A program made the position numbers and the translations under genes. The notes under the pieces are model-generated. The model ran no database searches. It was not told the DNA's origin and worked only from the letters and a program-made list of their open reading frames with translations. Below are positions 5,643-56,874 of a stretch of 64,000 bases of DNA, piece by piece; position 1 is the stretch's first letter; every line of letters starts with the position of its first letter. The DNA is taken from contig CM049315.1 of the NCBI GenBank assembly GCA_026874595.1, forward strand, positions 68,643,916 to 68,707,915. Reading direction: 5' to 3'. The DNA comes from Sipunculus nudus. Lineage: Eukaryota > Annelida > Sipuncula > Golfingiida > Sipunculidae.

Positions 5643-6307
5643 CTATGCATAAAACTGGCAGCTGGCTTTGCTGGACTTCTCGTTATACAGGGTTTTGACG
5701 GATTTCAAAAATTCACAAAATAAATTCTTCCCCTGATGGCGTAATCTCCATATGTAAACGCCGAGGTAGCTTTGTAAGTTGGACAGATCTAACACCGAAT
5801 CTCGGCATACCCACACCTTTTTTTCACCTTTTGCCAATCCCCTTCTATTGAATTCGTGTGGCATCCTGTCTCCGGGTTTTTAAAATTCTGACTGTGGTTC
5901 ACAGTCTCATGCTGGTACACATGATCACTCAAACAATCGTACGACGTCCAGTAATCAGAGCGTATGATAGAGCCGGCTTTAATGTATTTCTTGATAAGTG
6001 GCAGCAGCGTGTCGGTCGATCTGTCAGGGACTATAAACATAAACACTTTAGTTTTATCCCTCTGTTCCCTCCCTCCAAAAACCAAATCACCCTTGACCAT
6101 ATGACCTCTGTGGTATTTTCGTTTTGAAAATTTTGACTCGTCGATCTGAACGATCACCCCATTTCCCCCGATTTGTGCATCACCCGTCTGTGAAAGGATA
6201 TTGTGTTCACATACCTCTCTGCAAATGTTACACCAGTCAACACAAGTATTGCTGCTCACTTTGAGTTCCCCCATCATCTGACATTGTGTCATGCCTGTGG
6301 ACCACAT
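5643..6307 (-). pseudogene. Merlin/ISXO2-like transposase, catalytic part
   Basis: Two overlapping reading frames (6307-5789 and 5864-5643) cover the catalytic domain of a Merlin-type (IS1016/ISXO2-like) DDE transposase. Visible motifs in order are a Cys-containing DWCNICREVCE segment, IDESKF (first acidic residue), LVFGG, a DRSTDTLLPLI segment, IRSDYW (second Asp), a VNHSQNF segment, and HTNSIEGDW (catalytic Glu). This is the conserved order for the family, which cuts and pastes elements carrying 8-9 bp target duplications. A frameshift separates the C-terminal tail. The missing N-terminal SIR-GSWF segment is at 21193-21375 on the same strand, beyond LINE-1, so the gene appears split by that insertion. 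Merlin genes are usually around 300 codons, and the two parts together roughly fit. Confidence 0.8.
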
Positions 6308-6316
6308 ATTTTTTTA

Positions 6317-8547: not shown

Positions 8548-8639
8548 GGCTTCTGTTTTTAGCTCAGCTGACTGAAAGTCATCTGAGCTATAGCGATCAC
8601 TCTTTGTCCGTCGTCCGTCTGTCCGTCTGTCCGTCCGTT

Positions 8640-10944
8640 AACCAGGCACAAATCGTAACCGCTGGACCTAGAACCTTGTAACTTGGGATTCTGAGAGGTC
8701 CATAAAAAATCTCCTTGGAAACCAGAAATTAGGTCTCTGTTACCCATATCCTTAGCGCTATGTGGCCCCAAAGTACCCCCCAGAAAAGTAAAAAATTTCA
8801 TACAAAAACTTCAATATCTCATTAACTACTTGACTGATGGTCATGATTTTTGGCATACATTTTGATCATGAGATGTTACATCACTTCCTGCAGACTGGTG
8901 GCGCCACCTGTATTTTTTTACGATTTTTTTTCTCTATTTTTGAGACCTTTAAAAATGTGAACATCTGTTAACAAGGCACAAATCATAAAGACTGGACTTA
9001 GAATCTTAATTCTTGACACACTGAGAGGTCCATGAAAAATCTCCTTGGAAACCAGAAATTAGGTCTCTGTTACCCATATCCTTCGAGCTATGGGGCCCCA
9101 AAGTACCCCCCAGAATAGTAAAAAATTTCATACAAAAACTTCAATATTTCAATAACTACATCACTGATGGTCTTCATTTTTGGCATACATATTGATCATG
9201 AGATGTTCGATCAGTTCCTGCAGACTGGTGGCGCCACCTGTACTGTTTGATTTTTTACGATTTTTTTCCTCTATTTTTGAGACCTTTGAGGATGCTGTCA
9301 TCTGATAGCGTGGCACAAATCGTAACGACTGGACCTAGAATCTTCATTTTCGACACACTGAGAGACCTATGAAAAGTCTCCATAGAAACCAGAAATTAGG
9401 TCTCTGTTACCCATATCCTTCGAGCTATGGGGCCCAAAATTACCCCCCAGAATAGTAAAAAAATTCATACAAAAGCTTCAATATTTCAATAACTACATCA
9501 CTGACGGTCTTCATTTTTGGCATACATATTGATCATGAGATGTTCGATCAGTTCCTGCAGACTGGTGGCGCCACCTGTACTGTTTGATTTTTTACGATTT
9601 TTTCCTCTATTTTGAGACCTTTGAGGATGCTGTCATCCGTAGCGTGGCACAAATCGTAACGACTGGACCTAGAATCTTCATTTTCGACACACTGAGAGAC
9701 CTATGAAAAGTCTCCATAGAAACCAGAAATTAGGTCTCTGTTACCTATATCCTTCGAGCTATGGGGCCCAAAATTACCCCCCAGAATAGTCAAAAATTTC
9801 ATACAAAAACTTCAATATCTCATCAACTACATCACTGATGGTCATGATTTTCGACATACATATTGATCATGAGATGTTTCATCAGTTTGTGCAGACTGGT
9901 GGCGCCACCTGTATTTTTCAATGTTCACAAATTGTTTTCTCCATTTTTGAGACCTTTAAGGATGTAGTTATCTGTCAACAGGGTACAAATCGTAACGACT
10001 GGACCTAGAATCTTCGTTCTTGACACACAGGGAGACCCATGATAAGTCTCCATGGAAACCTGAAATTTGGTCTCTGTTACCCATATCCTTTGAGCTATGG
10101 CACTCCAAAGTACAGCTCAGAATAATGGAAAATTTGATACAAAAGCTAAAGTATCTGAACAACTAATGCAGAGGTAACCATAATTGTTTGCATCGATATT
10201 GATCATGGAGTGTTTCATAAGTTTCTGCAGACTGGTGGCACCACCTGTATTTGTTCGTTTTTTTTTACGAAATTTTTCTGTATTTTTGAGACCTTTAAAG
10301 ATATGAACATCTGTTAACAGGGCACAAATCATAAAAACTGGACCAAGAATCTTCATTCTTGACACACAGGGAGACCCATGAAAAGTCTCCATGGAAACTT
10401 GAAATTAGGTCTCTGTTACCCATATTCTTTAAGCTGTATGGGTCCAAAATACCCCCCCCCCCCCAGAATAATGGAAAATTTGATACAAAAACTGCAGTAT
10501 TTCAATAACTACAACACTGATGGTCATGATTTTCGGCATACATATTGATCATGAGCTGTTCCATCAGTTTCTGCAGACTGGGTGTGCCACCTCTATTTTT
10601 TTTCAAATTTTTACGAATTTTTTTTCTTTTTTTTGAGACCTTTAAAGATGTGGTTATCTGTCAACAGGGTTCAAATCGCAACAACTGGACCTAGAATCTT
10701 CATTCTTGTCATGCAAGGAGGCCCATGAAAGGTGCCTGTGGAAACTTGAAATTAGGTCTCTGTTACCCATATCCTTCAAGCTATAGGACTCCGAAGTATC
10801 CCTCAGAATAATGGACAATTTGATACAAAAACTGAAGTATCTGAACAACTAATGCAGAGATCACCATGATTTTTTGCATGGATATTGACCATTAAGTGTT
10901 TTTATTAGTTTCTGCAGACTGGTGGAGCCACCTGTATTTTTGTA
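8640..10944. repeat. tandem ~335-bp units inside TE-1
   Basis: Seven diverged units share phrases such as AACGACTGGACCTAGAATCTT (shifted forms), AGGTCTCTGTTACCCATATCC and GCAGACTGGTGGCGCCACCTG. The palindrome GGTGGCGCCACC, exact or with one or two changes, falls at about 8897, 9237, 9564, 9898, 10233, 10580 and 10920, giving a spacing near 335 bp. ORFs in this stretch are repeat translations and not genes. Confidence 0.8.
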
Positions 10945-12299: not shown

Positions 12300-13217
12300 C
12301 TGTTTATATGTAAACCCGAGTATTTTGCAATTTTTTTTAAAAAATAAGTCAAATACATTTTTAACTGAATCTGTATCTTTAACTATAACAGTAGTATCAT
12401 CTGCATAAAGCACTAATTTTAATTCAATTTGTTTTTAATGTGTATACCACTTATATCTGGATTACTTCGAATTGATACAGCTAATATCTCCAAGCACAAA
12501 ATAAAAAGGTAAGGTGAAAGGGGATCTCCCTGTCTCACTCCTATTTCAATCTTAAAATAACCTGACGAAAAACCATTATTTAGTATACATGCCTCAACAA
12601 TACTGTACAAAACTTTCACCCATTTAATAAAGCTGACACGAAAATTAAATCGTTTAAGTGTTGCAAAAATATATTTCCAATCTAATGTGTCGAAAGCCTT
12701 TTCTAGGTCTATTTTGAGAAGTATACCATCCAAATTTCTGTGATTTGTATAATAAACAGCATCCAAAATAGTTCTAACTGCCTCTGTTATGGATGTACTT
12801 TTCATAAAGTCATGTCGATTTTCATGAATCAGTTTTGATAAGACTGTTTTTAATCTAAATGATAAAGCTTTTGTCATAATCTTATAATCAATATTTTATA
12901 AAGAAATAGAACGCCAGTTTTTTTATTATAGTCCTATCTTTGTCTCTCTTTTCAACCAGAGTGATAACTGCTTGTTTCTGTGATGCTGTCAAACTACCAG
13001 TATCCGAGGAATAATTAAAGCTATTAACCATCACCAATCCTAGTTTTTCCAAAATATGTATAATAAATCCTGCTGACAAACTATCGTTACCTGGAGATTT
13101 ATTCTTTTTAAAGGTATTTAATGCTTTAAAACATTTCTCCAAAGACAAAGGTCCCTCACACATTTCCTGATCTTCAGGTGAAAGGTTTGGAATGTATTTA
13201 TTCCTAAAAAAAATCAT
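12300..13217 (-). pseudogene. LINE-1 ORF2 reverse transcriptase
   Basis: Frame 13217-12888 carries the finger motif around KKNKSPGNDSL. Frame 12877-12419 carries LLKIDLEKAFDTLDW (first catalytic Asp region) and GVRQGDPLSPYLFILCLEIL. A stop at about 12417 is followed by LYADDTTVIV, which holds the intact YADD catalytic pair. These are the ordered motifs of an L1-clade reverse transcriptase that copies LINE RNA at the genomic target. Breaks at about 12885 and 12417 make it a pseudogene. The sequence stops at the edge of TE-1 (12298) and resumes at 8547. Confidence 0.85.
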
Positions 13218-13594
13218 TAAACTCTATATTTTCTGTTGAACATTGTTTTGAGGCATACAGATTTTCAAAGAATCTTTTTTCTTCCTCTAAAATATCTTAG
13301 TTCCTATTATAATGTGTCCATCTATTAATTTCTTAATTTGTTTCCCATTTCCATTTCTTTTTTCTAGATTATTAAAATACTTTGTACCTTTTTCTCCATG
13401 TTCAATCCATCTTATTTTTGCCCTGGTTATTATTCCTTCAGTTTTTGCATCATATAAATCCTCTAATTCATTATTAAGTTGTTTGTATCTTTCAATTTCC
13501 TCCTTTGTCTTCTATCTTTTGTATTTCCCCGATCAAACACAGTTCTCTCTCTCGTGTCTCCCAACATTTAGTTTTTGCATACCGTATGGTTTCT

Positions 13595-14898
13595 TACGGT
13601 GGCTCGTGTAGGACATGCACAAAATTATTTTTTATCTCATTCCCACGCGAAAGTATCTCGTGGCCACGCGATAATCATCTCGTTCCCACGCGTTAGTATC
13701 TCGTGGCCACGCGATAATGATCTCGTGGCCACGCGATAATGATCTCGTTCCCACTCGATAATTATCTCGTTCCCACGCGATCGTATCTCGTTCCCACGCG
13801 ATAATTATCTCGTTCCCACGCGTTAGTATCGCGTGGCCACGCGTTAGTATACCATGCTAGCTGAAGCCCTCATTTAGACAAGAATGTCTGTGGCCAGTTT
13901 TATATCGAGCGTCGATGCAGCTTAAATTGTATGTCTGTATTTCGTTGTATGTGCGTTTGCGCCGAATGCTTTGAGGTAAATTTTAGCAGTTTTCATTGCG
14001 TTAGTTCAACATTCCGTTGCGTTGGTTCAACTAGCCCATTTTTATTTGTTTATAGAAAACTGTATTGAGTTTGTTTTAGGGTAAGGGTGATATAAACCCT
14101 TGTGTACCAAACATATGAATTAAACTGAAACACTTGTTTGTATTTTACCTTCCTAGAAAATCCTATTTTTTAGTGCTAGGGTTGGGGTTATTTAATTTCG
14201 GGTATACCGAATAGGGTAACCAACATGTCGGTTTGTTTTATGTCTCAAGGGAGAAGCTTACAACAAAAGGTCTCAGCCATGCCACTTCATTATGACGGGG
14301 GGAGGGGTTAAGGAGACCTTTTTACGAGAAATTTGCTCATTCTTCCCCTTCACATCTTTCTTCTACAATAAAACTTCAGTTATGTAATTATAGGTGGCGA
14401 AACCGGGGGGCCGGGGCCCGAGCCCCCCCCCCAATAATTTTTTTTGATGATGGGTATAAAAACATCCACTCTATTATTATTGGGTATTATATATATATAT
14501 TCCGCAGACTCCGGGATTCGAGGTGAAAAAAAAATACTGCGAAGTTGATATTCTGTGTAAAAATGAAACCATTGCCAGACAGATAACAATTAATCTCCCT
14601 ACAATGAGGTACTGTTTTACTAAATAAGCATTGACCAATAAAATTCAACAGAATGCAGTAGTACCCATACAGTTTTTCAAAATTTTCCAAACCTTTGGAG
14701 GGTGAGATTCCCTCCCACATCCTCCCCCGTCGGGGATTACCCCATCAAATCCGCCCCTCTGCCATTTGTGTCAGGCTACGGCCCTTATTTATAAATATGT
14801 ATATACATATATATATATATTAATAATAATATATATAATATATATGTATATATAATATATATATTTATTATATATACTAATATATATTATATATATTC

Positions 14899-14958
<60 letters not shown>

Positions 14959-15449
14959 TATTGGGTATACTCTTGGGCCCCCAATGAAAATTTGGTTTCG
15001 CCGCCAATGGTAATTCATATTATGAACATTTATTATGACAAGTATTTTACCCGAACTAGCCCCCCCCCCTTTTCCCGCTCACACATTCTCTAAAAAAGAT
15101 GGCCCACGAGTGTTGTACGAGTCCCCGTTGCATAATTTCAGGTCTCAGCATATTAAGCCCGCTCTAAATTCAATCAAATAATTAACCATAGTCTTCATCC
15201 AGTGTATAGAAACATGCCTTAAGGATTTAAGATGTAGGTCTTACTGTATTGTCCATCTACATTTATCTCGTTCCCACGCGATAATTATCGCGTGGCCACG
15301 CGATAGTATCGCGTTGGAACGAGATAATTATCGCATGGCCACGAGATACTAACGCCTGGGAACGAGATAATTATCGCGTGGCCACGAGATACTAACGCGT
15401 GGGAACGAGATAAAAATAATTTTGTTCATGTCCTATGCGAGCCACCGTA
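13595..15449. mobile_element. TE-3: terminal-inverted-repeat element, 6-bp duplication
   Basis: The left end TACGGTGGCTCGTGTAGG is inverted at the right end, and similarity continues through an AAAATTATTTTTATCTC phrase into the subterminal arrays. The exact duplication GTTTCT lies outside both ends (13589-13594 and 15450-15455). Both subterminal regions (about 13625-13850 and 15260-15412) are arrays of short phrases combining CGTGGCCACGCGATAAT and CGTTCCCACGCG. No transposase is present. It interrupts LINE-1 between endonuclease and reverse transcriptase: coding resemblance ends in RKET on one side and resumes with IRYAK on the other. Confidence 0.8.
14390..15009. mobile_element. small inverted-repeat element nested in TE-3
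   Basis: GGTGGCGAAACC near 14392 is inverted as GGTTTCGCCGCC near 14994, with GTAATT on both outer flanks (14384-14389 and 15010-15015). The interior has a second GGGGCGGATTTG-type inverted phrase near 14750 and a long imperfect TA microsatellite (about 14800-14957). It could be a hAT-like MITE. The assignment is tentative. Confidence 0.5.
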
Positions 15450-15455
15450 GTTTCT

Positions 15456-15691
15456 TTTCTGATTTTGAATTTTAGAAACTCCCAGCGAAGGTTTCGATTA
15501 TCATCATTATCATCCCTTAACCAATCTTCTAGCTTTGAAAGCATCAAGTCCAAGTAAACCCTGTCCTGTAAGAGCTTATTATTAAATTTCCAGTAACCTT
15601 TTCCCCTTCTCTCTGATATATCTTCTTTTAAAGAAAGTATTACTCCAGAATGATCTGATTTGAAAGCAGGAATTATTTGAACATCTGACAC
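15456..15691 (-). pseudogene. LINE-1 endonuclease C-terminal part
   Basis: The frame contains AFKSDHSGVILSL, the C-terminal SDH motif of apurinic-like endonucleases in LINE ORF2, followed by a KGYWKFNNKLL segment and a FLKFKIRKET segment typical of the linker to reverse transcriptase. It ends at the TE-3 insertion. The middle of the endonuclease (15692-16178) is too decayed to read in one frame. Confidence 0.75.
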
Positions 15692-16178
15692 TGTCTTGTT
15701 ATTCTGAAGATGTAAGAAAATAATCTATTCTGGTATAAATTTTCTTAGATGTTTGTCTCCATGTATATTTATATAAATAAGGGTGTTTGATTCTCCAGAT
15801 GTCTTGTAAGTCTAATCTTCCTTTTATATTGATTATTTCATTTATTGCTCTTGTTTTTAGGATGACTGATCCACCTTTTTCATTATCTCGTGTTAGAGCT
15901 GTATTCCAGTTTCTCCCATCAGTATATTATCCTCTTGTTTCACATTGAATAATTCTGATTTTTTTAATAATTTCTTTGAAAAACACAACTTGCTTACACT
16001 CATCATTTCGAGTATTGAATATATATGTATGATTATAAATGTTGTTTCATTAACCTCTAATTACAAAATAATTAATCTTCCCTCATCTTTATGTCTCTTT
16101 ATATTCGCACTGTAAATTTCCCGATATGAAACAAGCTACCCCTCGACTATGTTGACTTCCATGACTCATTATAACATA

Positions 16179-16409
16179 TCATCCCCATTCATTTTTCCAA
16201 GTAACTTCATCCCCTGGCTCACTGTAGGTTTCCTGTATTAAAAGTAAGCTCGCTTTATGTTTCCTGGCCCAAGTGAAGATGGACCTTCTCTTTTTGAAGT
16301 TTCTTAAACCTCTCACATTTATACTTAGTAGTTTAATATCTGACATATAAAGTTTTTTTTCTTTGTAAAATTTGTTAAACGGTTGCATATAAAAGCAGAA
16401 ATACTCCAC
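16179..16409 (-). pseudogene. LINE-1 endonuclease N-terminal part
   Basis: The likely ORF2 start is the internal Met of the segment MSDIKLLSINVRGLRN. It shows the N-terminal Asn motif (SINVRGL) and LLLIQETYSEPGDE, which holds the metal-binding Glu of the LINE endonuclease. This enzyme nicks target DNA to prime reverse transcription. The upstream codons are unlikely to be part of the protein. Truncation by frameshift follows near residue 76. Confidence 0.75.
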
Positions 16410-16803
16410 TGGGTAAAAGAGTTAATGAATTTGTTTAAATTTACATTTTGATTGATAGAGACATGCAGATGCATATATAAGTGGATGATTATCTGTACAT
16501 TATTCTTATATTGTACCAGATTTTCTAGATCTACCAAAAACTATCAGTATAGAAAATCCTGTCATATCTTATTTACCATCTATGGATATCATAATATATA
16601 CCACTTATTTTTCATTTTGTTTCTCCCTTTGAAATCCTTGGATATGAATTCTTATCATCGAGCTGCAGACCACTTTCCTTTGCTCGATTATTTTAAGTGA
16701 CTAACAATAGTGGTCTCCAATTTTAATTATGTATATATTTTTTTTAATTTTATGTTTTGAAATTATTACAGACTTTTTTTCTCTACTTTTCATATAAATA
16801 TAT

Positions 16804-16975
16804 ATGACAGACCTTCCTGCGACCCTCCGGTCGCACGAAGAGGGCTCCTTCCTGCGACCCCCCTCACGTGACCTGGTATGCACATGTACCGGGTCGCAGG
16901 AATTCCTGGTGGCTTCGTGCGACCTGTGTTGGCCAAGCGCGGTCGCACGAAGCCGGGGCCTTACAGGGGGGCGGG
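16804..16975. repeat. GC-rich island of interleaved inverted repeats
   Basis: In an AT-rich neighbourhood this stretch repeats TTCCTGCGACC (two direct copies and one inverted as GGTCGCAGGAA) and GGTCGCACGAAG (two copies, plus an inverted CTTCGTGCGACC). It can fold into several alternative hairpins. Function unknown. It may be an end of a small transposon or part of the boundary of the neighbouring MULE-like fragment. Confidence 0.6.
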
Positions 16976-17509
16976 GAACTCACCTACTAATGTAATTTGT
17001 GATAGATGGAAAGAAAATGTTAAAGAAATTTGACTCGTTAGTAGTATACGTTGTACATTTCATTCAAAATTAATAACAAACCATCTATTTGTGATAATTA
17101 TTTTTTCATTACAGCACTCTCGCACACATTCTTTCATTGCAACGCAACATAAAGGCATCATTGACAACTGAGAAGACTTTATTTGTAAATTTGAAATTCA
17201 TAATATATACACAATAAGTACATAAATTAGAATTCTAATTCTACTTTCACAATATATACATACAACAGAAACTGTCCATGAAACAAAACTTGTAACCAAA
17301 TGCACAAATATCATTTTTACAATGAGTGGAAACAGTATCAATGTTGGCCATGAAGTATACACATTAAGCATACATACAGAATAAAACATAAAAAAGTTTT
17401 AAAACACAGAGTACTATAATAGTATACACATAAACTTTATTGAAAATGAGATGGCACACGCATGCAAAAGACACTGAGGTACTAGTACAAACTTATTAAA
17501 TTGGAGGAA

Positions 17510-19275
17510 TTTTACATTTGTAACTGCAGAAGTAAGATAAATCTGGATTTTCAAATTATTTTTAGTCAATATGTTTACAACTTTGATGGTACCACTCTGA
17601 ACACCCATCGCACTGATCCATGTCTCCACACGGATAACCATAATAGCTTTTTTTCTGAATACAACTGCCTACAAATGCAAAATACTTCTATATTTTCAAT
17701 CCTTTCTTTCGATTAAGGGGCAATACTAATATTACTTTGGAGAAATTCTGTAAGTCGGCCTTTCTCAAGGTGACTGCGCAGTGAACCTTTTGATATAGTT
17801 GCATTGACTGGGATCACTTCCATGAGCTAATGCAGTAGCAAAGGTGACAGCAAATGGATAACAATCGCTGCTGCCCTCCTGTATTTGCACCGAATGTGAT
17901 TGTATAGTTAGTTGGAGATGTTGCCTTTACTATTGCGCAGATTTGATGAAATGTGCCTTTTGGAATTTCTTGATCGATGGAATTATATAATGAAACATGA
18001 TTTGGAGCAGTGTTAACAGTAGAAATAGTGACCCAATTTTTATACCTGCCGCAGTGAATTATCTGAATCATGTTTTTACTTAAATTTTTAAATGACTTAT
18101 TTTGTGCCAAAACTGGATCTTGTAAACCGTTAATATGTGGAAATTGTTGTTTTAAAATAATTTGAGCAGCGTTCAAATGTGTATCAGATAACCAATTATC
18201 AGGGCCTAAAAGAATATCCTGATCTGTATAAGTGAGTTTTCATGCAGAAATCCAGGGGTTTGCATTAAGTTTTCTTTTTTTTCTGTGTATTACAATTGCT
18301 TTTGACTTCGTTTTTACCTGAAAACACTGTAAATGATTTTTTTTGTTCCTTTTGTCCCTACGTCTTTTAATATTTGTTAAAGGGAGCGTGTTGCCCAGTT
18401 CTTCAGTGCATACCTTTTTATCAAGGCCATCACACGGTACTCTGATGTTCCCCAACTGAGGTGTTTAAGGCTCTGTTTGCACATTGGTTCTAGTCAAATC
18501 TGGCAGTTTGTCATTTTCAATGTTAAAATTATCAAATTTGGTGGTGTCCGAAACATTATGGTCAGATTCTCTTTTCAATGGTTGTGGGCGTTCAGCTTTT
18601 TCTGTTTTATCTGGTACGTCTGATATTTTACCCGTGCTCTCAAAGCTTAAGTGAACTTCTTTATTTAACCGCCACTCCCTTGAAAGAACTTCTAATATTT
18701 TAGTTTTGGAGAAAAATTCTTCTTCGCCACAGGTGGAAAGGAAAGATGCTAAATCCTTTGTAGTTTCAGCAGCTCTTACATATTTTTCATTTTGGGATTA
18801 AAAGTTCTTTTTATTTTTTACTGGGGGTAAAACGGGTTGATCAAATATTGGCATATCTTGTTCAATTAATTTTTCATTGTTTTCTTTTTTTCCATCGAAT
18901 AGGAATAAGTTCTGGACTGAAATGGGGCATATCATTGTCTTTTCTTACTCTAAAAATGTGTCTACAAGGCAACTTATACTGGTACCAAAACCTACAGGTA
19001 CGTTGAGTAGCATCTATGTTCATCTTGCATATGGTTTCATTTTTAACCAAAAACTCAAAGTTATTATCTGTCTTGATGATAGACCCTGCAATTTTTTCGG
19101 ACATCTCGATTTCGGGATTAATAATCAATACTCCTTGTTTTGTACATACATGAGCTATTTGGACATGCAATTCATCAACTTGTCGGGAGTCCAGACTTAC
19201 TTTCAGTGCATCAAATTCACTTTTATTTGCATATTTTCTACTGATTTTATGTAATTGATTTGTCCCTGCAAACAT
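17510..19275 (-). pseudogene. MULE-like protein fragment: SWIM finger, Ulp1 protease, PHD finger
   Basis: Reading on the minus strand, frame 19275-18874 ends in a SWIM zinc finger (CRFWYQYKLPCRHIFRVRK) followed by an IPIRW segment, the typical C-terminus of Mutator-like transposases. A poorly conserved, Lys-rich linker with several stops follows. Then comes a C48/Ulp1-like cysteine protease: DNWLSDTHLNAAQIILK, GLQDPVL, QIIHCGRYKNWVTIS, LYNSID, and after a frameshift near 17875 GSSDCYPFAVTFATALAHG. A SHLEKGRLTEF segment corresponds to the usual post-catalytic helix. A PHD-like finger lies at about 17690-17510 (FCICRQ in one frame, then QCDGCSEWYHQSC and YFCSYKC). The nucleophile Cys is kept, but the usual catalytic His and Asp positions read Asn. 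The DDE transposase core upstream is missing. Ulp1 domains in MULEs are known from plants (KAONASHI-type). Confidence 0.7.
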
Positions 19276-20279
19276 TCATCTAAGTGAAAATGTGGTCGGA
19301 TGTACATTTTCAGTTTCTGATATATTAAAACATCGATATAAATATATTAAAATATAATTGACCAAGATCTTCATACAAAATTTTCAAATCTTGAAGTTTG
19401 ATTTATGCGTGGGCGTGTCCCTTGGTTCCACTATTAATTCCCACTGAAAACTATAACCTTAATTTTCGCGCAGTATCTGACCATAAATTATAAAGTTTAA
19501 TATATATATCTTACCTTATTAACACACATTTAACCTCAGTGACCCACCACCTATGAAAAGTAAGCTCTTAATTATCAAATTGAAAATAGTATTGATAATA
19601 CGGATTTCCAGCCCATCTTACAAACCGCTCAAATATTATATATCTCACGACAACCAGTATATGCAAACCCAAATATGAGTTTGTTTATATATAATTATTA
19701 ACAATACAAGTTCAGCATTTAATAATTACTTTTCACTACATACTTCTTACCAACAGTGTCAACACGGACAGCACGAGAAACGGCAACTCGCCTGGAATCA
19801 AAACCAATAACATTACATTGCACTGTTCAAGACTTGCCCTTATTTAAATTTTGACGGATTCTTTACCTTGCATTTTAAGAAATATTAAATACTCACCAGT
19901 AAACCCCTCCATCTAACATTAGTAACAGGTTTCAACTCATATTATGTTTATATATTTCCATACACGGTTATGGGTTAGGTTCACACATTAAGCTAGGGAA
20001 TCAATAAGTCCCTCATAAACATTGAAAAGTCTTTACCATCCAGAGTAACCAAACATGAGCGTCATATGGCGCTTCCTGCTCGAAAGGTTTGTACTACTTG
20101 TTCATATTCCCTGCAGATGGCGCTGTCCCTGTTTTAGACGCTGATTGGTTAACACCAAGTATTTATAAGTCCGTGCCAGTCAAGTTCTATTATTCTGTCT
20201 GCGGTTTCAACTGACCTCATCGTTTAAATATCCTTTATGCATTCCGAGGTCTGTAATCCTCGGCTTCAGTGTTCTCTAT
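19276..20279. other. spacer between MULE-like fragment and LINE-1 ORF1
   Basis: No recognisable coding sequence. The first part is AT-rich. From about 20050 GC content rises, with repeated ATGGCGCT phrases (about 20068 and 20117), a GATTGG box near 20144 and a TATTTATAAG box near 20160. It could be the flank of the MULE-like insertion. Its boundaries are not resolved. Confidence 0.3.
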
Positions 20280-20996
20280 TCAATATGATCCTTTCCGTTC
20301 ACAACCAGTTTTTCTTTGTGGAACGTAACCTTCAGTCCAACGTTATGCATTTGTGGGAGAGTTTTTTTTTTCTCAGCTCCCAATCTGCTTTTGTAAAATC
20401 CTCAACTACCAATTTCGCCCTTCTGGTCCTCTCTTCTTCGTTTTCTTCAGTATTTCCCGTCTGTCCTCCCTGCTGTATAACCCGACTATGATCTGCCTGT
20501 CCCTATTGTCTTTCCATTGTCCAGTTCTGTGTGCCACCTCTGTCCCTTCATTCAGTAACTCGGCTCCTCCAGCACTTGTCGTTTTAACATTTTTATCACA
20601 GTTTGACGTGTATTTTCTCCCTTCTCCTCCTCCTTTTCCCCCCTTTCACTCGTATGTTGTATTCACGGCTGTGTCTGTCTAGTTGGTTTTTTAAAAGCAT
20701 CGTTCATTTCTTGTTTACATGATTTCAACTCTTGTTTTACTTTCATCCCATTTCACCTCCAGCTCTTTCACTCTGTTTTCTAATGTTATTTTGTCTTCTT
20801 TCAAGTCTTTAACTTCTTGCTGGGTAATTTCCAAACTTTCTTGTAAATTCTGTGAGCTATTTCTAATCTGTTCACCCAGTTCTGTACGCATTTGTTCACA
20901 CTGGGCCTTTATACTGTCCGCCACTGTTGTAATCAATCTTTTCCACCGTTTCTCCAGTGCACTGAAGCTAGCATTGCTCGCCTCGGCCATCTCCAC
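20280..20996 (-). pseudogene. LINE-1 ORF1 (coiled coil plus RNA-binding remnant)
   Basis: The first 93 codons (20996-20715) form a long heptad-rich coiled coil with Glu/Lys spacing (QESLEITQQEVKDLKEDK region), as in L1-type ORF1 proteins, which trimerise and bind LINE RNA. After a stop, broken frames down to about 20280 retain an EYNIRVKGGK segment, an EVAHRTG segment and NRDRQIIVGLYSREDR, which match the RNA-recognition and C-terminal regions. ORF1 precedes ORF2 of LINE-1 in the correct orientation. The start is placed at 20996 although an upstream in-frame extension is possible. Confidence 0.65.
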
Positions 20997-21183
20997 TGTG
21001 GATGGTGTATCAGGTAACTGGAGTTCGCTTTCTCTAGAGGAATATGACTCTATAGTGTCAGGGGTTTCACTTTCACTGACCTTTCTGCACCTTTGGCTTT
21101 TGTTGTTGTCTTGGTGGCATTCTGCTATTCTTTGCAGGCTACTAATTTATATTTATGCGGAGACCCTAAACGACCCGTCTCAT

Positions 21184-21204
21184 GCCGCCATGTTAGTCAC
21201 GTGA
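21184..21204 (-). promoter_or_regulatory. YY1-like and E-box motifs at LINE-1 5' end
   Basis: On the minus strand TCACGTGA (an E-box palindrome) is followed by AACATGGCGGC, a good match to the YY1 site, close to the inferred 5' end of LINE-1. Human L1 uses a YY1 site near its start to position transcription. The same role here is an analogy only. Confidence 0.35.
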
Positions 21205-21375
21205 CCCAATGAAGCAAGCCTTATACGTCAGCTTGATGATTTCTTCACTGGTGAGATTGGCAAAACTAAACCAACTCCCATGTCTGATAGACAAACGCAC
21301 ATCGTGTTTTTGGGGTTGTTTTTTCTGACAAAGCCATTTGTAGGTATCACTAGTAGTGCTTTCGGCGGTACTCAC
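21193..21375 (-). pseudogene. Merlin-like transposase, N-terminal part
   Basis: A 60-codon frame contains DTYKWLC, a VRLSIRHGSWFSF segment and LTSEEIIKLTYKAC. This resembles the segment that precedes the DDE domain in Merlin/ISXO2 transposases (a Cys-containing strand, SIR-GSWF, L..EI..L.Y). Its C-terminal continuation is found at 6307-5643 on the same strand. The frame runs out at CFIGS, exactly where LINE-1 appears to begin. The upstream start and any intron are unclear. Confidence 0.6.
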
Positions 21376-21735
21376 AAGTGACTTAGCTTGTCCACATTGA
21401 TAACCCGTTCTTTTATCCTTAAGCGATTAACCCTCCATCAGCCAATTGATTGTGCTCTTTTGAAATTAAAATCTGTTGCATCAATGTCTCCCACGTTATG
21501 TTGTCTAAAGGTGGGAGATTCTTCCGCTGATAGCTGCCTTTGCTAATATGGTACTGTGTTGCAGCATTTCTTATATTTTTTTTTCACCCACCAATGTACA
21601 CTGTGTTACTGCATCAGTAACATGACTATGTTTCTGTACATTGCTACGTGGTCTTACCATCAACCTGGGCTTATGATTAACTCTGGGCCGTCGAGCAACG
21701 GTTTTTGCCGTCCTCTCACGGAACCTCCAGAACTG

Positions 21736-21966
21736 TCATTTTTGGATTCCTTCACTCTTTTGGGGATTCCGTGTCATCATGACCAGTTTTTCTTTTTCTG
21801 TCGCACGTTTGTGAGGCTTTCTGGGTGACACCTGTCTCTTCAATGACGATACTATCAAGTTTTTTTTTCGAAATCTAGGTATCATCGGGGACTCGAAGTC
21901 CATGTCGGACGACATCATGTCTGCCGTTAACGTCAACAGATAAACTGCCTTGGCAATATTGACCAT
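21736..21966 (-). CDS. unrecognised basic ORF upstream of Merlin-like fragment
   Basis: A 76-codon frame with a hydrophobic start and a strongly basic middle (PRFRKKNLIVSSLKRQ, SPRKPHKRATEKEK). I do not recognise it. It is on the same strand and about 360 bp upstream of the Merlin-like N-terminal piece, so it could be an upstream exon or a DNA-binding extension. It could equally be chance. Confidence 0.2.
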   Translation of the reverse strand: MVNIAKAVYLLTLTADMMSSDMDFESPMIPRFRKKNLIVSSLKRQVSPRKPHKRATEKEKLVMMTRNPQKSEGIQK

Positions 21967-22087
21967 TATTTATTACATAACTAACTATTACATAACCATT
22001 GGACTGTGCAACGCGAGTGACCGAGTGTACTGAACGACCTTTAACATAAATATAACCCCCGAACATTGGCCTGCATGAATGCCTTGA

Positions 22088-22141
22088 TGGCATAGGGATT
22101 ACATTCCTAGCAGCTGTGCGGAAGGTCGGCGGATCGATTCC
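22088..22141 (+). repeat. tRNA-like SINE head (A and B boxes)
   Basis: TGGCATAGGGA (22088-22098) fits an RNA polymerase III A box. GGATCGATTCC (22131-22141) fits a B box with one change, and the spacing of 32 bases is tRNA-like. The acceptor arms do not pair well, so a tRNA-derived SINE or tRNA relic fits better than a functional tRNA. Confidence 0.4.
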
Positions 22142-22476
22142 AGTATACACCAATTTATCTTTATTTGTTTGCATGCTTGTAACAATCATTGATTTCTCTT
22201 TCAGATTTCTTCAGAGATGCGAACATTATACCCAGGGTTCACATCGGCAGTAGAAGTGACAGATCAAATAAGGGATCAGGGAGATGGATATGCAGGAAAA
22301 ACAAGACAGATGCAGTGACAATATATTTTTTTTCAATCCCCCCCCCCCCAAACAAAAATTCTACACCCCATTTTTTACTCTATCTCCATCAAATATATTG
22401 CCCTCTTTAGCTTGAGGACTATTCCTTTATCCATGTTTTTGGATTCATGGGTAGGTACTAATTCTATAGTCTCTCC

Positions 22477-23209
22477 AGTTTTGCATGTGTATATATCCTA
22501 GACAGCTTTCTTGATTTTATGACAGGTGGCGCCACCTACATCTAAGCTCATATCTTGGGAACCGTTTGACCGATTAGGCCAACATTTTGCATGGGTATAG
22601 ATCTCACATAGCTCTTTATCGTACGCAAAACTTGTGGCGCCACCTGCAACTATTTTTGCACAGAGTCCATCTGTCCGCTGCTGTTGGATAAAATCACTCA
22701 TATCTCGGCAGTGGTTTGACATGTCTGCCTAAAATTTTGCAGGTTTATATATCTTGGACAGCTTTCTGGATCTTGTGGCAGGTGGCGCCACCTACATTTA
22801 TGTTTACGCCCCAGACATCCAGGCTTATATCTCAGGACTAGTTTGCTGTATTCTCCTAAAATATTGCATATCACATAGCTCTTTATCATACACAAAACTG
22901 GAGGCGCCACTTGCAGCCATTTTTGCATAGCGTCCGTCTGTTTGTCTACCTTGGGCTAAAATCACTCATATACAAGTATTGGTTTGAATTATCAGCCTAA
23001 AATTGTGCATATGTATACAACTTGGACAGCTTTCTGGATTTTGTAGTAGTTGGCGCAACCTACATACACATTTCGGCTGCAGACATCCATGCTAATATGC
23101 AGCACACCTCCCTCTATTTCCCCTTGCCACTCAATCCATGCTTCACTTCACCCGTTTCACTTTGATTTCGGCGATACACGTAGTCGCTTGTTGACTACCC
23201 GTATTCTAG
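22477..23209 (+). mobile_element. Helitron 3' end fragment
   Basis: The sequence parallels the distal part of the complete Helitron, including ACAGCTTTCTTGATTTTATG and GGTGGCGCCACC palindromes at 22525 and 22781. It ends with a perfect GTAGTC/GACTAC hairpin, 7 unpaired bases, CTAG (23206-23209) and a host T. Element R leader resumes immediately. With the 5' piece at 4134 it forms one Helitron split by later insertions. Confidence 0.65.
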
Positions 23210-23793
23210 TTTAACATTCAACTTCGTTACTGGTATTTATAGGAAGTCTTTACATTATTCAGACACTTGAATTTAACACAAGTCTTTATCATCTCACTAT
23301 TGGTCAGTGTTAACACTGTTAATTATCAAATTCGTTTACATTTGTTTTTGTCACTGACATTTTGTCACTGACATTTGGTCAGTGTATGTTGACACTTCTC
23401 AGATGCTAGTCGTTTAAATCATTTGAGTTTTGTTACCCGACTGAAGTCATCGTACGATCAATCATTTTGATATTTTCATTTAATCAGATATTTAAATAGT
23501 TATATAATTGATGAATTTATGACATACGAGCTCGCTAGCTAAAAATATATCCATTTGAAATTTTGTTTACATTTGGTTTCGGTGATTGACTGAACTTGAT
23601 TTAGTATTATCACCTAGTTATTATTAAGCTCTGTGATTTAACTGGGTCAACGTTTCAGTTCAATATTTATACTCACCATTTATATACCAAGTTATCATTT
23701 GAGACTTTGTTTGCATTTGTGTTGGTGATTGACTGAACATGATTCAGTATAATCACTTGATTATATATACAAGAATTTTGTCAGTATTCTAAG
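23210..23793 (+). other. R copy A leader, distal part
   Basis: The leader resumes after the Helitron with a block (TTTAACATTCAACTTCG) that also occurs at 4021 and 34870, so the leader held tandem ~115-bp units. Phrases such as GTGATTGACTGAAC recur around 23585 and 23725. No coding sequence is visible. Confidence 0.5.
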
Positions 23794-23849
23794 TTGGTCA
23801 CAGAGTTGTCAGTTACTTGCCATCAGTTTATACTTCTGCCAACAGTTGT

Positions 23850-24151
23850 TACATTTGGCAAGATAGCGCTTATTGACCGCAGCTTGTTGTTGCAAAATTC
23901 ACCTGTGGATTTCCAATTAAGTGACATCACTCACTTTATAAAGCTACATGGGGATTCACAGTGTGCTGACAGAATTATTCCCCGTGACAACTCAGCCTTC
24001 ATTGTATTCCTTAAAGCTGATGATGTTGTCAGTGCTAGGAATTCCTTTCGATGGTTGCCAGTTAGGTGATCAGATAGTGAGGGTGGTAACCGTTCAGGCT
24101 GAGATAGAGGCCACTCGGTACGAATGTAAAATAACTCTCGCACCTCTCTGA
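23850..24151 (+). pseudogene. R Gag N-terminal domain (RRM-like), frameshifted
   Basis: A frame reading QLSDITHFIKLHG, RIIPRDN and SAFIVFLKADDVVSARNSF fits the order of an RRM fold: helix 1, strand 2, then RNP1-like strand 3 and helix 2. Near 24060 the reading moves to another frame (LGDQIVRVVTVQAEIEATRYEC), so the gene is broken. It lies between the R leader and the capsid region at 31132, interrupted by the P-like transposon. PNMA-family proteins, which derive from Ty3-like Gag, have an N-terminal RRM-like domain before capsid. That analogy supports the call but does not prove it. Confidence 0.4.
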
Positions 24152-24298
24152 AGCACAACACTTGCATGAACAGAAAACGTTTTTATAACCATCTTCTTCT
24201 TAATTTCGTCACTTATTTTCAACTGCCTCTTACTTCTTCATTACATTAATTCTAATCACCATTACATCCGTCCGTATATGCACAGAGCTAGTCAAGAC
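24084..24298 (+). repeat. ~210-bp direct repeat, left copy
   Basis: This segment of R, ending AGTCAAGAC, abuts the left end of the P-like transposon and is repeated at 30929-31139 beyond its right end. A third, inverted copy lies at 4371-4550. In R copy B the same transposon ends directly against GTCAAGAC, with no 210-bp repeat on that side. Confidence 0.75.
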
Positions 24299-24781
24299 AA
24301 CAGGCACCTGTCGTATAAATAGTGTCTTTACGGGTATATAGAGGGTTAACGGGTATATAAGGCATGGGACCCCCGGCACTACTATACTAATAACAGAGAA
24401 TGGCACACCACTTTTCCAGGCGACCGCTGTGACCCGCCTACTTCACCAGCTGAATTTTTATGTTTGCATAAGTAAATGCACAAGTAACACTGATCGTGTG
24501 ACCATGCACCATTTTATTAGGTATAAAATATATAACTAAAATCTAGAAAGAGATATGTGGTACATGACACAAAAATATAAATGTGCGAGTGTATGTAATT
24601 TAGCACAATAGAGTGTAGGAATGTCCGTGTGATGGTCATTCCCCATATCTGTGACTGATACGCTCGTATAGGCAAGATGCTTCCAAAAAGATGTGTTTTG
24701 TAATATTACTTATAATAACATATAACAAAAATACAAAGTCATGACATATCCTATTAAAAAGATGCAGGTACAAACAGATCA

Positions 24782-24784
<3 letters not shown>

Positions 24785-24831
<47 letters not shown>
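24785..24831. repeat. (TA)n microsatellite
   Basis: About 23 TA units near the left end of P-like copy 1. The same position in copy 2 (about 38908-38953) also has a TA run, of different length. Overlapping ORFs with YIYIYI runs are translations of this repeat. Confidence 0.9.
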
Positions 24832-24833
<2 letters not shown>

Positions 24834-25861
24834 TGTAATTACAAGTGGAAAACAAGACAGAAGAGGTGTCTACTGTATTTGCTGATGTCCACTTTGTCAC
24901 CCGATTGTTATAATGCAAGAAGTAAAGTGAACATGGGACCCGGCATGCCACACGACATCCTGTTTTTCGTGCATACCTCAAAAATGTAAACAAATACTCA
25001 ATGCATGTCGTCCAAGCAACGGAATAACAACTATATGGCCTATGGCAGAGCCGGTTTCTGGCCCATGTGACAGATGCATCAAGTGGACCCTTCAACTTTA
25101 CACCAGTCACCACTCTTCACAAAGTTCATCCTTGCACACAGTGTCTACAAAGAACTGGCGTGTTCTGTGTGATACAAAGCCATTTGCTATGTATTCACTA
25201 CTATCCGTGGAGCAAGAGAAGGCAAAGAGAGCCGTTATACAGGATCATAATATTGTTGTGACAGGTAACCTGAATGATGCAAAAAATAATATATATGCAC
25301 TACTATGCCTTGTGTCATATGAAAATAGGTATTGTGGAATGTGGTAAAAACTTTATTAAATTCAATATGTGCTGACAGAGTGATATAGTAAATCAGTGGT
25401 TATAATCATGCTGTTGTGTACTGTCAATATCATGTATGTAACCCATATTCCCATAATACATGCATTTTTGAACATGGCATCGGTTGTAAAGCCACATGTA
25501 CAATAAGAACATGGTGGAGATAGAAACAGTATATTGTAATTTGCATTTGTTTGGTAACACCATTGGCTACAAGTTTGGCCTGTGTAACTACTGTAAAATA
25601 ATGATTTGTGAGTGCACTCCCATAACTTTGTATTTACAAACTACAATCCTTCCATGCCACACTGTAAGGATAATGTATTTATCCACCAGAACCTATCATA
25701 CAGGCCACAGACACCTGTTAGAAAGACAAACATGACACACAAATGAAGTTAGGAATGATAAATGTCTGGTCACTATGCAGGAGAATACTCATACATGTGC
25801 GATTGCAGCTTGCACCATCCATGCATGTAAAGTCAACAGTGAATTTCCATATCTTTAACAT

Positions 25862-26630
25862 TTACACTGCCTTCGCAAAAAATATATTTATTTCTGGAGC
25901 ATTAACGCCGTGTGTTGGGGAAAAAAGCAAATGGAAAGCGAAAACCATCATAACCAAGAAAGCGAACTGCAGAGTATGTTTTGCCATCTGCACATCATTC
26001 GTATCGGTCGTGAGCTTTGTCATGGCTGCACATTTCTGGCCTGTTTGTACTAGTCCTCGGAACTGGAAGTTACTGTGCATGTCATTATCCTGTTGTATGG
26101 CCATTTCATCAAAGATGATTCCCCCAGCCCTTGATGCCTGCTGCCTTTGAGCTTAAGTACCCATCAATTTTAACAGCTCACAGCTTCTGCTTCATGACAT
26201 TTTTATTCCTCTGCAGAAGTGTTTCACTTGGCAATATTAGGAGGCCAGAGTTTCTCAGTTCACTATATGCCTTTGGACTGCGGTTCCACACTGTTAAACA
26301 AGGCATGATGATATGTTTGTTCCATCGATGTCCCCTTTGACCTTTGCTTGAGATAAGACAGTTACGTTGTGCAATTATCAGTGTTTTCATGTGCTCTGTA
26401 GCACCTGGTAGCAGCTTGTCTATCAAGCCAGTAACTTCACTATTTTCTTCCTCATGATTCACAGCAGGATCTGGTGCATGAGGTATTGTCTGGCACTCCC
26501 TGCACACACGGGTAGCAGCTGAGAAACTGATCACACCTTCACAATTAATAGAATGCAAACGGTTTTCTGTGATCCCAAACGAGGTCCACACCTTCACATG
26601 ACATGAGCTGCTCATTGGCACATCTGTCAC
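25862..26630 (-). pseudogene. P/THAP9-like transposase fragment, copy 1
   Basis: Frame 26630-26178 has a Cys pair (CRECQTI), an acidic stretch, then HRWNKHIIMPCLTVW, RSPKAYSELRNSG and LILPSETLL. This order is seen in P/THAP9-like transposases before the RNase H-like core. Frame 26104-25862 starts at the motif IIFDEMAIQQD, whose Asp aligns with the first catalytic acid of P-element transposase, followed by an FRGLVQTG segment. A frameshift separates the two parts. The later catalytic residues and the DNA-binding THAP domain are not visible. Introns in the original gene are possible. Confidence 0.6.
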
Positions 26631-26784
26631 CTTTCCTTGGCAAACTATCTATTATGTCTGTGATCATACTGATATTTTTCGGGGATGCCACACAAGTATT
26701 CTGTAAACTGATTGTCTAATCAATCACAATTGAGCCAATGCTGCATGTCAATGTGCCATCAGCATTGAATATTATCTCCTTTCT

Positions 26785-39994: not shown

Positions 39995-40653
39995 TTATTT
40001 CTGGAGCATTAACGCCGTGTGTTGGGGAAAAAAAGCAAATGGAAAGCGAAAACCATCATAACCAAGAAAGACTAACTGCAGAGTATGTTTTGCCATCTGC
40101 ACATCATTCGTATCGGTCGTGAGCTTTGTTATGGCTGCACATTTCTGGCCTGTTTGTACTAGTCCTCGGAACTGGAAGTTACTGTACATGTCATTATCCT
40201 GTTGTATGGCCATTTCATCAAAGATGATTCCCCCAGCCTTGATGCCTGCTGCCTTTGAGCTTAAGTACCCATCCATTTTAACAGCTCACTGTGTAAGCCT
40301 GGCTTCTGCTTGATGACATTTTTATTCCTCTGCAGAAGTGTTTCACTTGGCAATATTAGGAGGCCAGAGTTTCTCAGTTCACTATATGCCTTTGGACTGC
40401 GGTTCCACACTGTTAAACAAGGCATGATGATATGTTTGTTCCATCGATGTCCCCTTGGACCTTTGCTTGAGATAAGACAGTTACGATGCGCAATTATCAG
40501 TGTTTTCATGTGCTCTGTAGCACCTGGTAGCAGCTTGTCTATCAGGCCAGTAACTTCACTATTTTCTTCCTCATGATTCACAGCAGGATCTGGTGCATGA
40601 GGTATTGTCTGGCACTCCCTGCACACACGGGTAGCAGCTGAGAAACTGATCAC
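39995..40653 (-). pseudogene. P/THAP9-like transposase fragment, copy 2
   Basis: Frame 40653-40261 carries CRECQTI, HRWNKHIIMPCLTVW, RSPKAYSELRNSG and LILPSETLL. Frame 40276-39995 carries AGIKAGGIIFDEMAIQQD (first catalytic Asp) and FLGYDGFRFPFAFFP, a stretch conserved in P-like cores. A frameshift or short indel separates the two frames, much as in copy 1, so the break may predate the duplication. Downstream catalytic residues are not readable. Confidence 0.6.
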
Positions 40654-43600
40654 ACCTTCACAATTAATTATACATTATAATTATACATCTTCCTCCTGCT
40701 TTTCACGCAGCTAATATAGTCCAGAGATCAGTTTGCCACACATCTGTTTATTTATAGGTGTGATGCGTTTTCCTGTACATTCTGCGTTGTACTTATCAAA
40801 CAGGATATTCTTGATGACATGCCCATCTTTGTGAAGGACCACAGTGTGATGTAGCCTTCAAATATGATGATGCTATCTTAATTACAGATTATATTTTCAG
40901 ATGGTACTGCAGGGCTCGAAAAATATTATTGGACCTAATGGTCCTCGAGACATGATCACATTAAAAGACTGTGGTCCTCAACATTTTTACATGTCTCACA
41001 AAAGTTAATGACTCTCCCACAGAACATTTGATAGGTAATTGGGCAAATATACTTTGAAATGTCCACGTTTTCTGGATATTCATTCTACTACTGCTACAGA
41101 ATATTAAGATTGATAGATTATTACAACTACTAAATGATGGTACATTTTGCTCTTCCACGGGGACATGATTGTACTGGCTAAGTATTCCTCATCATATTTT
41201 ATTCTCCAAAAAATGGGATGAGTGGATTTATCGAGCCCTGGTACTGTGTTGTCTAATGGTTTGTGCCTACAAATGTATTCATAAATTATTTTAGCATACG
41301 TATTTTTAATACGCTACAATTCAGTGAGAAAACAATATGACCATATATGTAATACATCCTCATATACCATGCTAGTTTTCTTCTAACATGTCACAATGAT
41401 TTCCTCCAACAGTTGAATATTATAATAATCTAAACACATGGCCACACGTTTCTATCACATAACATATATTATACAATTGGATCAGGGTTAGATATCTTAT
41501 TCACAGGTGGCTGAATCACAGGTGGCTGAGTCATCCTGATTAGGTAAAACAGGTTCTATCCTTCTTGGGTGTTTAGTGTCTGTGTATGTTAGCATCTGAG
41601 GTGCTTCAACAGGTTTTCCCATCATAACTCAGAGTAAATTGATCACAAATAACAACATTATACAAGAAATGCTGTTGTTCATTTGGTTTTGGGTATTTTT
41701 TTCTGAAATTGAGAAGTATTGGCCAGTAATGGCTACATGGGCATTGTTAAGTACTTACTGGGTCAGCTTTAGCCGGCTTTAGCCAGCGGCTGAAGCCTGG
41801 GATGGCTCTTACCAGCCAACCCTGATGTTTTAATATGTACTTATTTCATGTCATTGTGATTGATTCCTCTTTCTATTCATTTAATGAACATTTTGGAGAA
41901 TACATGCATCCCAGCAGCTTTCCACCAATAAAACAATGCAACACTTAGGAAACAATATGATCATCATACAGGCAGATATAGGCCATTTCAGAGGGTAGAT
42001 ATAGTTATTTATTTTGAAATCAATTATCATTCGTGATTAGTAATAGTAATAGACTATTACAGCTTTATGTTTCATGTAATAGTAATAGACTAAAGTTTTT
42101 TAGCTGTAATAGTAATAGAAACAGAAGGTAAAGTAATAGAGTAATACATATTACTTTCTATTACTTCCTGTAAGTCCATTGGTCATGAAGCATATCAGCA
42201 AATAATGCTGAACTGACTCAGTTCTTGTCTAGTGATCGCCCAGGATGTGCCTATTGTTAAGGCAAGCAGGGGCCAGTTGGTGTCAACTGGTGCTATTACA
42301 CAGGAGTACTGGACAGAGCAGGTTTCAGCCAATTAACCTATACCTATATCACTATCTGACTTTTGATTACTAGACCATGAATAAACAGAGGCATGTTTGA
42401 TGTTGAGACAGATAAATAGTGTATTATTATTGTATCTTAACTCACATCAATCAATATCATGTATATTCTGAATTGCAAAAAGACTTGTTTTCACCAACCA
42501 GTTAGCATTTTAATAATACAAATTGCAATAAAACACATTCAAGGAAAAATATAACATTGAACCAAATGTTCATGATCAGCTTTAGATGTTTTCACTACCC
42601 AAAATGTAATGCAGCCTACAATGCTATAAATTCCTACCAGTACTTATATCACTTGAATAAACCCAAACTACAAGTACATGTTTTATCTAGGTTTTTTTAT
42701 ATATATAATGTTCTTTTAAAACTACTCTGTTAATACTTGTCTGTTATTTTACAGCACCCTTTCAACATCTTTATTGATGCCTTTTTATGTATTGAACATG
42801 TGATAATCTTGAGGTACACAGTAATTTTATGGAATATATAAGTTTGGATTGGGAAATGGGATATAGCTCTTTATTCATTTACATACATACTGATTCATAA
42901 ATAAATATGATAATCATATTCAGTAATCATAAATAATCCTTCTGGTGAAAATTTTTAAGTTACACTGACATTCATTTAACATGTATTAACTATATGGAAG
43001 AAAATGAAATATAAACTGAAGTATGTAAGATTGATACATTTAAGTGAAATATATATGACGAAAATATGTAAAAATATTCATTTAAATCAATATTTTCCAT
43101 ATGCCAGGTCCTTTACAATTGCCATGCTTAAATTATGTAAATAAGTGTGAAATAACTTCGTGATATATAGGTGCTTGTCATATTAATTTACAAATGTAAC
43201 TGTAGTGTTAGGTAATAGTGATGTTGAATGCAGAAGGTCCAGAATCTCCTATCAGTATAAGTAATAGTAATAGATACACAAGTAATAGTAATAGTAATAT
43301 TAATATCAGAAATTGAAAGTTATAGTAATAGAAGTGGTGTAATAGATCCCATGTCTGCTCAGGGATGGACAGGCAATAGGAGAACACACACACTCTTCTA
43401 TAGTGTAGCTCAGTATGACGAGAGTGGTCTTAAGTCAAACATTCTACATGAGAATTCCTGACACACAGGGATTATATGGCTAAATAAGGAATATATATAC
43501 GTCACAACAGCACTGCCTGACAAATATATGAAAAAAATAATTTGGAATATAGGGCAGCTAGAAAGCCTGGAAAATACATATATCTTCTGTTACTGACTCA

Positions 43601-49569: not shown

Positions 49570-49761
49570 TATTAAGAAGTTTATGTAAAGTTCTAGGTGA
49601 TATCATTTCTTTGTTCTCATTGACTATGATTTGTTTCTACCTTCGTAGAATTGCTTGAACTAAACTAATATAATTCAAAAAAATTATTGACCTCATACTT
49701 ACTAATAAATTCCTTATTCTTTTAAACTTATTCGTACTTTGTACCGTTTTAACTAAATCTG

Positions 49762-56873: not shown

Positions 56874-56874
56874 G

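Follow-up and report, generated by a model that had tools for sequence, protein, structure and literature searches.

A stretch of 64,000 nt from Sipunculus nudus (GCA_026874595.1, contig CM049315.1, 68,643,916–68,707,915), referred to as the window in this text, almost certainly carries a decayed copy of a cut-and-paste transposon of the Mutator-like type, reduced to its 3' half. In this family the transposase runs from a FAR1-like DNA-binding part through a DDE core of the ZSWIM1/3 type, a SWIM finger and a motif resembling an AT-hook to a cysteine protease domain of the Ulp1-like kind and, at the C-terminus, a PHD finger. Relatives in the same 1.43-Gb assembly show how the modules are ordered, that the transposase is matched, that targets are duplicated over 9 bp and which sequences form the ends; comparison between families shows purifying selection on the tail. 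As for the copy in the window, it is an ordinary fossil.

Extent and state of the window copy

Similarity to relatives delimits a decayed, 5'-truncated element copy at 16806–19321 on the minus strand, the 3' end of which aligns with the element end. A preliminary description of this DNA had given the interval 17510–19275, which lies inside the element but is too short and has to be extended to these limits. The 5' limit is 19321 by comparison with three of the four relatives tested (L011, L018 and L051) and 19204 with L010. Position 19321 corresponds in L011 to the point directly after the residues RIESH, which we take to be the putative catalytic Glu region of the DDE core. At the other end, the 3' subterminal region and element end (16806–16924, minus) show 82–84% identity to the 3' ends of family B, a group of relatives discussed below. 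The final bases at 16806 are GGGTCGCAGGAAGGTCTGTC in the window copy versus GGGTCGCAGGAAGGCCTGCC in family B.

Between 17.4 and 19.3 kb, the minus-strand frames begin with a SWIM-like finger and continue through a basic stretch and an Ulp1-like domain to a PHD finger, interrupted by several frame changes and stops. The SWIM zinc finger (18955–19002, minus) is contained in an open frame of 133 aa (18877–19275, minus) and has an Arg at the first Cys position, where relatives read QCTCRFW..LPCRHIF. It is followed by a basic stretch (18339–18374, minus), and relatives carry RRRGRPKG at the equivalent place, which we take to be an AT-hook-like motif. The Ulp1/C48-like protease domain (17795–18239, minus) matches pieces of L013 at 62% and 73% identity in tblastn. 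It has a frame change ahead of the catalytic Cys, and an Asn replaces the His of the HWV found in relatives. The PHD finger (17499–17682, minus) suffers from a mid-domain frame change and two in-frame stops. A genome search with it gave at least 42 matches, the best of which, apart from a duplicate described below, is 94% identical and has an open frame.

What remains of the element in this copy is its 3' end with the SWIM, basic, Ulp1 (C48) and PHD parts; the DDE core and the 5' end are absent. We found no DDE core near the copy (Pfam, 16501–26400, minus strand, three frames), nor elsewhere in the 64-kb window by tblastn with the L011, L012 and L013 frames. Lacking a DDE core and with a broken frame, the window copy cannot act.

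Read from the letters of the window, the modules score weakly against their Pfam cut-offs (PHD 24, SWIM 19.6, C48 20.7 and FAR1 28.1 bits). The PHD finger reaches 25.1 bits on a piece joined from two frames and 17.8 bits in a single frame; in a single-frame reading with stops as X, it is the only one of the three modules visible at E ≤ 1. The preliminary description was right that the PHD part is assembled across frames, but not that it is the weakest module, since no other module exceeds its cut-off on the window letters, and the PHD does so when two frames are joined. SWIM stays below its cut-off at 14.7 bits, and so does C48 with 12.8 bits on a 41-aa piece around the Cys. A joined 176-aa read-through of the Ulp1 region matched no Pfam family. 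Given these weak scores, the window alone would leave the claim of three modules open; it is settled by the relatives in the same genome.

The copy lies in a block (13052–22955, at least 9907 bp) that occurs a second time on this contig (L019), at a distance of 393 kb and with 99.79% identity. L019 has broken frames and flanks identical to those of the window copy, as expected from a duplication of DNA or an assembly duplicate and not from a second insertion. The block is a recent segmental duplication or an assembly duplicate.

The window contains several other features. A second, unrelated PHD finger (56540–56720, minus, within 56130–56894) scores 24.1 bits at a cut-off of 24 and sits within a Gypsy-like pol frame, after the reverse transcriptase has ended and ahead of the H2C2 finger of the integrase. 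An ISXO2/IS1595-type transposase (5792–6313, minus, 69.3 bits) is presumably Merlin-like. A TNP-like RNase H match at about 25780–26167 (minus), at 24.6 bits exactly on its cut-off, is presumably P-element-like. Fragments of LINE reverse transcriptase and endonuclease were recognised by eye at 12419–16421 and 49057–52441 (minus), and a zf-RVT match of 40.7 bits lies at 49057–49602. There is a tandem array at 8637–10941 (about 6.8 copies of a 337-bp unit), with similar sequence upstream of the L010 element. Repeats of 43 bp with related units (ATCTCG and CGCGATAA motifs) occur at two places, 15276–15413 and 13632–13850. The frames 26181–26648 and 40264–40674 have a stretch of sequence in common.

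Relatives, module order and element ends

The relative L010 is 92% identical to the window across 16849–19204 and has a single 488-aa frame that extends from the SWIM finger through the Ulp1 Cys; the PHD finger follows immediately in another frame. SWIM scores above its cut-off in L010 (22.8 bits) and L011 (21.4 bits). C48 does so in the Ulp1 frame of L013 (29.3 bits); all remaining pieces scanned either stay under the C48 cut-off or give no match: a piece of L011 gave 19.7 bits for C48 and 21.0 bits for PHD, both below cut-off, and L010 gave no C48 match at E ≤ 1. All three profiles that the preliminary description had proposed to search with pass in some copy (PHD in the joined window piece and in L065), but SWIM and C48 fail in the window.

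Relatives with a DDE core, which the same description had suggested looking for in mollusc genomes, turned up in the same genome. A search for a haemocyanin domain of molluscs gave no match, and its controls gave none either. A 710-aa frame in L011 matches ZSWIM1-3_RNaseH-like (PF21056, 122.2 bits), MULE (PF10551, 55.6 bits), ZSWIM1-3_helical (33.8 bits) and SWIM, all above cut-off. The N-terminus of L011 is FAR1-like (20.2 bits, below the cut-off of 28.1), and the Ulp1 and PHD parts come after the 710-aa frame on the same strand. The order in the relatives is a FAR1-like part, DDE core, SWIM, AT-hook-like motif, Ulp1 and PHD. In none of five copies read, L010 and L011 among them, is the whole protein encoded in one frame.

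A distant lineage is represented by L065 (G000:C14:61533200–61537200), whose unbroken 1248-aa frame is matched by MULE at 34.4 bits and by PHD at 25.1 bits; the lineage is possibly recently active. The Ulp1 region between the two scores 13.8 bits, below cut-off, with HFVF, FDSL and DCG recognisable by eye. A SWIM-like motif is also seen by eye between MULE and PHD, where Pfam gave no SWIM match at E ≤ 1. The claim that the modules belong to one MULE-type transposon protein is borne out by the MULE/ZSWIM core of L011 and by the long frames of L010 and L065.

To count module orders, three genome searches were merged, in one of which the best 150 of 241 candidates were scored, giving at least 40 PHD, 41 DDE and 111 Ulp1 places. 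Among the matches listed, Ulp1 lies up to 2.5 kb upstream on the same strand at 21 of the 40 PHD places and in another order or strand at none; the remaining 19 have no nearby Ulp1 match. At 11 of the 40, there is also a DDE match within 8 kb upstream. Seen from the core, the 6 kb downstream contain a same-strand Ulp1 match at 14 of 41 DDE places listed, again with no other order or strand, and no Ulp1 match at 27. Some of these 27 look like other MULE lineages, and some may have decayed. The window copy and its duplicate are both included in the counts of 21, 11 and 14. The order is also kept in the divergent copies L018, L051, L052 and L054. In L017 the SWIM match is missing, and in L053 DDE and SWIM were matched and Ulp1 and PHD were not matched within 4.5 kb. 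Together with the frames in the window, these relatives confirm that the three modules follow each other on the minus strand in the order first described. Judging from sequence comparison, SWIM, Ulp1 and PHD are real modules and parts of one predicted protein.

The genome search gave nine full-length matches to the family B 5' end, CGGCGTGCTTCGTGCGACCC, and each of them is accompanied by the 3' end GGGTCGCAGGAAGGCCTGCC nearby. All nine loci were read for target duplications: eight have exact, A+T-rich duplications of 9 bp, and eight of nine bases agree in the ninth. The elements measure 4637 bp (L011), 5846 bp (L012), 1996 bp (L014) and 2493 bp (L016), and the remaining five about 1.0–8.6 kb. 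An element of undisturbed length in the best-preserved family comprises about 4.6 kb (L011), and six of the nine copies are 1.0–2.7 kb long, i.e. internally deleted. The putative terminal inverted repeats are short and imperfect: counted by eye, 14 of 20 positions agree between the 5' and 3' ends. Self-comparison of the element detected no long terminal repeat at the ends. Of the two hallmarks proposed for inspection, 9-bp duplications and terminal inverted repeats, the former were recovered exactly at eight of nine loci, the latter as putative repeats of about 20 bp. There are at least 11 well-matching 3' ends, two of which (C5 and C4:39305223) have no 5' end match. Since the best 40 of 497 candidates were scored in the 3'-end search, related 3' ends may be more common.

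Mutator-like elements are characterized by target duplications of 8–11 bp, mostly 9 bp, by terminal inverted repeats that are often long and sometimes absent, and in many groups by a SWIM finger after the core. The relatives have the MULE-type DDE core (PF10551 and PF21056, as scored above), which the window copy lacks, the 9-bp target duplication (eight of nine exact) and the SWIM finger after the core (21.4 and 22.8 bits).

Selection on the tail, possible function and rival explanations

We estimated dN/dS by simple pairwise counting. Between family A (L010) and family B, the ratio was 0.11 for Ulp1, 0.13 for PHD, 0.20 for SWIM and 0.28 for the linker, at a dS of 0.7–1.2, with dS saturated in several comparisons. 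Recent copies differ by few changes, and their ratios scatter from 0.15 to 1.31 (within family B: Ulp1 0.25, 0.26 and 0.90; PHD 0.19 and 1.18; DDE 1.02 and 0.67; N-terminus 1.31). The window copy compared with L010 gave, as a fossil should, values close to neutrality for Ulp1 (0.79) and for the linker (0.63), and a lower one for SWIM (0.26); PHD was left out here because it is affected by its frame change. The low between-family values indicate that selection preserved the tail during the active life of the lineages and that single copies decay afterwards. An Ulp1-PHD tail that is under purifying selection and is tied, in an animal MULE, to a DDE core, to element ends and to target duplications looks like a piece of transposition machinery, not cargo. 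It becomes testable in one element why domains of SUMO or ubiquitin proteases are found in many transposons.

Peptidases of the C48 (Ulp1) family are characterized by a catalytic His, Asp and Cys and an upstream Gln. In an alignment of six Ulp1 rows (L013, L010, L052, L054, L018 and L019), the His is found in five, the Gln in all six and the Cys in five (Ser in L054), and the Asp position is occupied by Asn in five. A profile search of the PDB with this alignment returned SENP1 only (E 0.4), and a single-sequence search returned adenain, AvrA and SENP1, all at E ≥ 0.23. With PDB matches this weak, the proposed membership in C48 rests on the Pfam score and the motif. In viral contigs, the Ulp1 query gave five pattern matches and no confirmed one, and the SWIM query a single weak locus (L001, 37% over 43 residues). 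The PHD finger has 13 matches among solved structures at E ≤ 0.01, including PHF2, KDM5A, Spp1, KDM5B, PHF8, KDM7A, CXXC1, SHORT LIFE and BYE1. Several of these are known H3K4me3 readers, and their presence among the closest solved relatives suggests a targeting role.

In such a transposase, the DDE core would cut and join DNA, and the FAR1-like, SWIM and AT-hook-like parts would bind the element ends and the target DNA. The Ulp1 domain may remove or bind SUMO-like modifiers, whether these sit on repair factors or on the transposase. The complex might be anchored on the tails of histone H3 by the PHD finger, with H3K4me3 as the probable mark, and such tethering would bias insertion toward active chromatin. 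It is conceivable, though we lean against it, that the two domains form a chromatin-targeting and deSUMOylation module of the transposon's own. The C-terminal PHD finger would read H3K4me3 and steer the MULE lineage to active promoters, and the neighbouring Ulp1 domain (with His-Asn-Cys for His-Asp-Cys in most families seen) would strip SUMO at the target or from the transposase; the similar pair in Ginger1 transposons would then be a shared, exchanged module.

The several frame changes in the window copy, with SWIM and C48 below their cut-offs, could be taken to mean that the modules belong to unrelated neighbouring genes or are chance frames. We give this hardly any credence, in view of the same-strand Ulp1 upstream of 21 of 40 PHD places (and none otherwise, among the matches listed) and of the single frames that connect SWIM to the Ulp1 Cys in L010 (488 aa) and MULE, the Ulp1 region and PHD in L065 (1248 aa). 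It also seems very unlikely that the stretch is a pseudogene of a domesticated host gene of the ZSWIM1/3 kind that had an Ulp1-PHD tail. Such a gene would fit the top Pfam match, a ZSWIM1-3 model, and the purifying selection between families; however, both ends are common to nine dispersed copies, of which eight have exact 9-bp duplications and six are internally deleted.

Gene fragments are frequently captured by plant MULEs, with ULP sometimes in reversed orientation, according to the accessible text of PMC2528002, and the Ulp1-PHD tail might likewise be dead cargo, as in Pack-MULEs, with no role in transposition. This has a small probability, since dN/dS between families is lower for Ulp1 (0.11) and PHD (0.13) than for SWIM (0.20), and the module order is retained across several divergent lineages. 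Another candidate is a Ginger1 transposon, which also has Ulp1 and sometimes PHD: both domains are given for Ginger1-9_HM (PMC2836005, table), and a Ginger1-like gene, L066, exists in the same genome. But the core here is of the MULE/ZSWIM type and not an rve integrase, and the duplications are 9 bp long and A+T rich, versus CCGG or CCGT in Ginger1, so that an assignment to Ginger1 is exceedingly improbable. A Mutator-like transposon whose tail belongs to its transposase remains our preferred explanation.

Comparison with known systems

The host genes ZSWIM1 and ZSWIM3 (PF21056, PF21600) have an RNase-H-like core, a helical part and a SWIM finger in common with the transposase described here; the difference is that we see dispersed mobile copies with target duplications. 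These host genes are not known to have an Ulp1-PHD tail. Literature searches found no paper linking ZSWIM with MULE and, among the matches listed, nothing relevant by title on H3K4me3 together with PHD and Mutator or on MULE in molluscs.

KAONASHI elements (KI-MULEs) resemble the Sipunculus element in joining a MULE to a ULP protease domain. As far as the accessible text of PMC2528002 goes, however, their ULP domain is reversed relative to mudrA, they have no terminal inverted repeats, and their hosts are plants. In S. nudus, Ulp1 is on the same strand at 14 of 41 DDE places and on the opposite strand at none, among the matches listed, which rules out the KAONASHI type. Rehavkus, to which both mentions of PHD in the accessible text of a MULE survey refer (PMC6446971), is related to MULEs, has a PHD finger and makes duplications of 9 bp. 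It differs in that its PHD lies inside the transposase domain and in its minisatellite; Ulp1 is not named there, and no word beginning with Ulp occurs in that text.

Ginger1 elements have Ulp1 at the C-terminus of the transposase, and one hydra family, Ginger1-9_HM, is tabulated with Ulp1 plus PHD in the accessible parts of PMC2836005. They differ by an H2C2 finger, an rve/Gypsy-integrase core and CCGG or CCGT target sites, in place of the MULE core found here. The L066 gene of S. nudus (G000:C10:6077800–6080200) is a Ginger1-like element with a 675-aa open frame, an rve match of 44.2 bits, an Ulp1 region just below cut-off (20.3 bits) and, by eye, a cysteine-rich CXC-like stretch.

A close likeness is found in animal Mutator elements. 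Bao, Kapitonov and Jurka (2010, PMC2836005) cite Ulp1-bearing Mutator elements of hydra and lancelet, and also of plants. By description, the animal MuDR/Mutator elements in this paper share a Mutator transposase and Ulp1 with ours. Ulp1 and PHD were named together only in this paper, among the matches listed in a search on Ulp1/C48 in transposons. Its figure 1e legend names an alignment comparing Ginger1 with Mutator transposases over the Ulp1 and PHD domains, with the Mutator rows that have PHD left unspecified. An arrangement of Ulp1 then PHD at the transposase C-terminus, as is likely for these elements by their description, is present here too. It is therefore likely that a Mutator element carrying both domains is already in print, and the preliminary view that SWIM-Ulp1-PHD belongs to no described family is probably wrong. 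Going by that legend, we count the S. nudus element among an already known kind of animal transposon.
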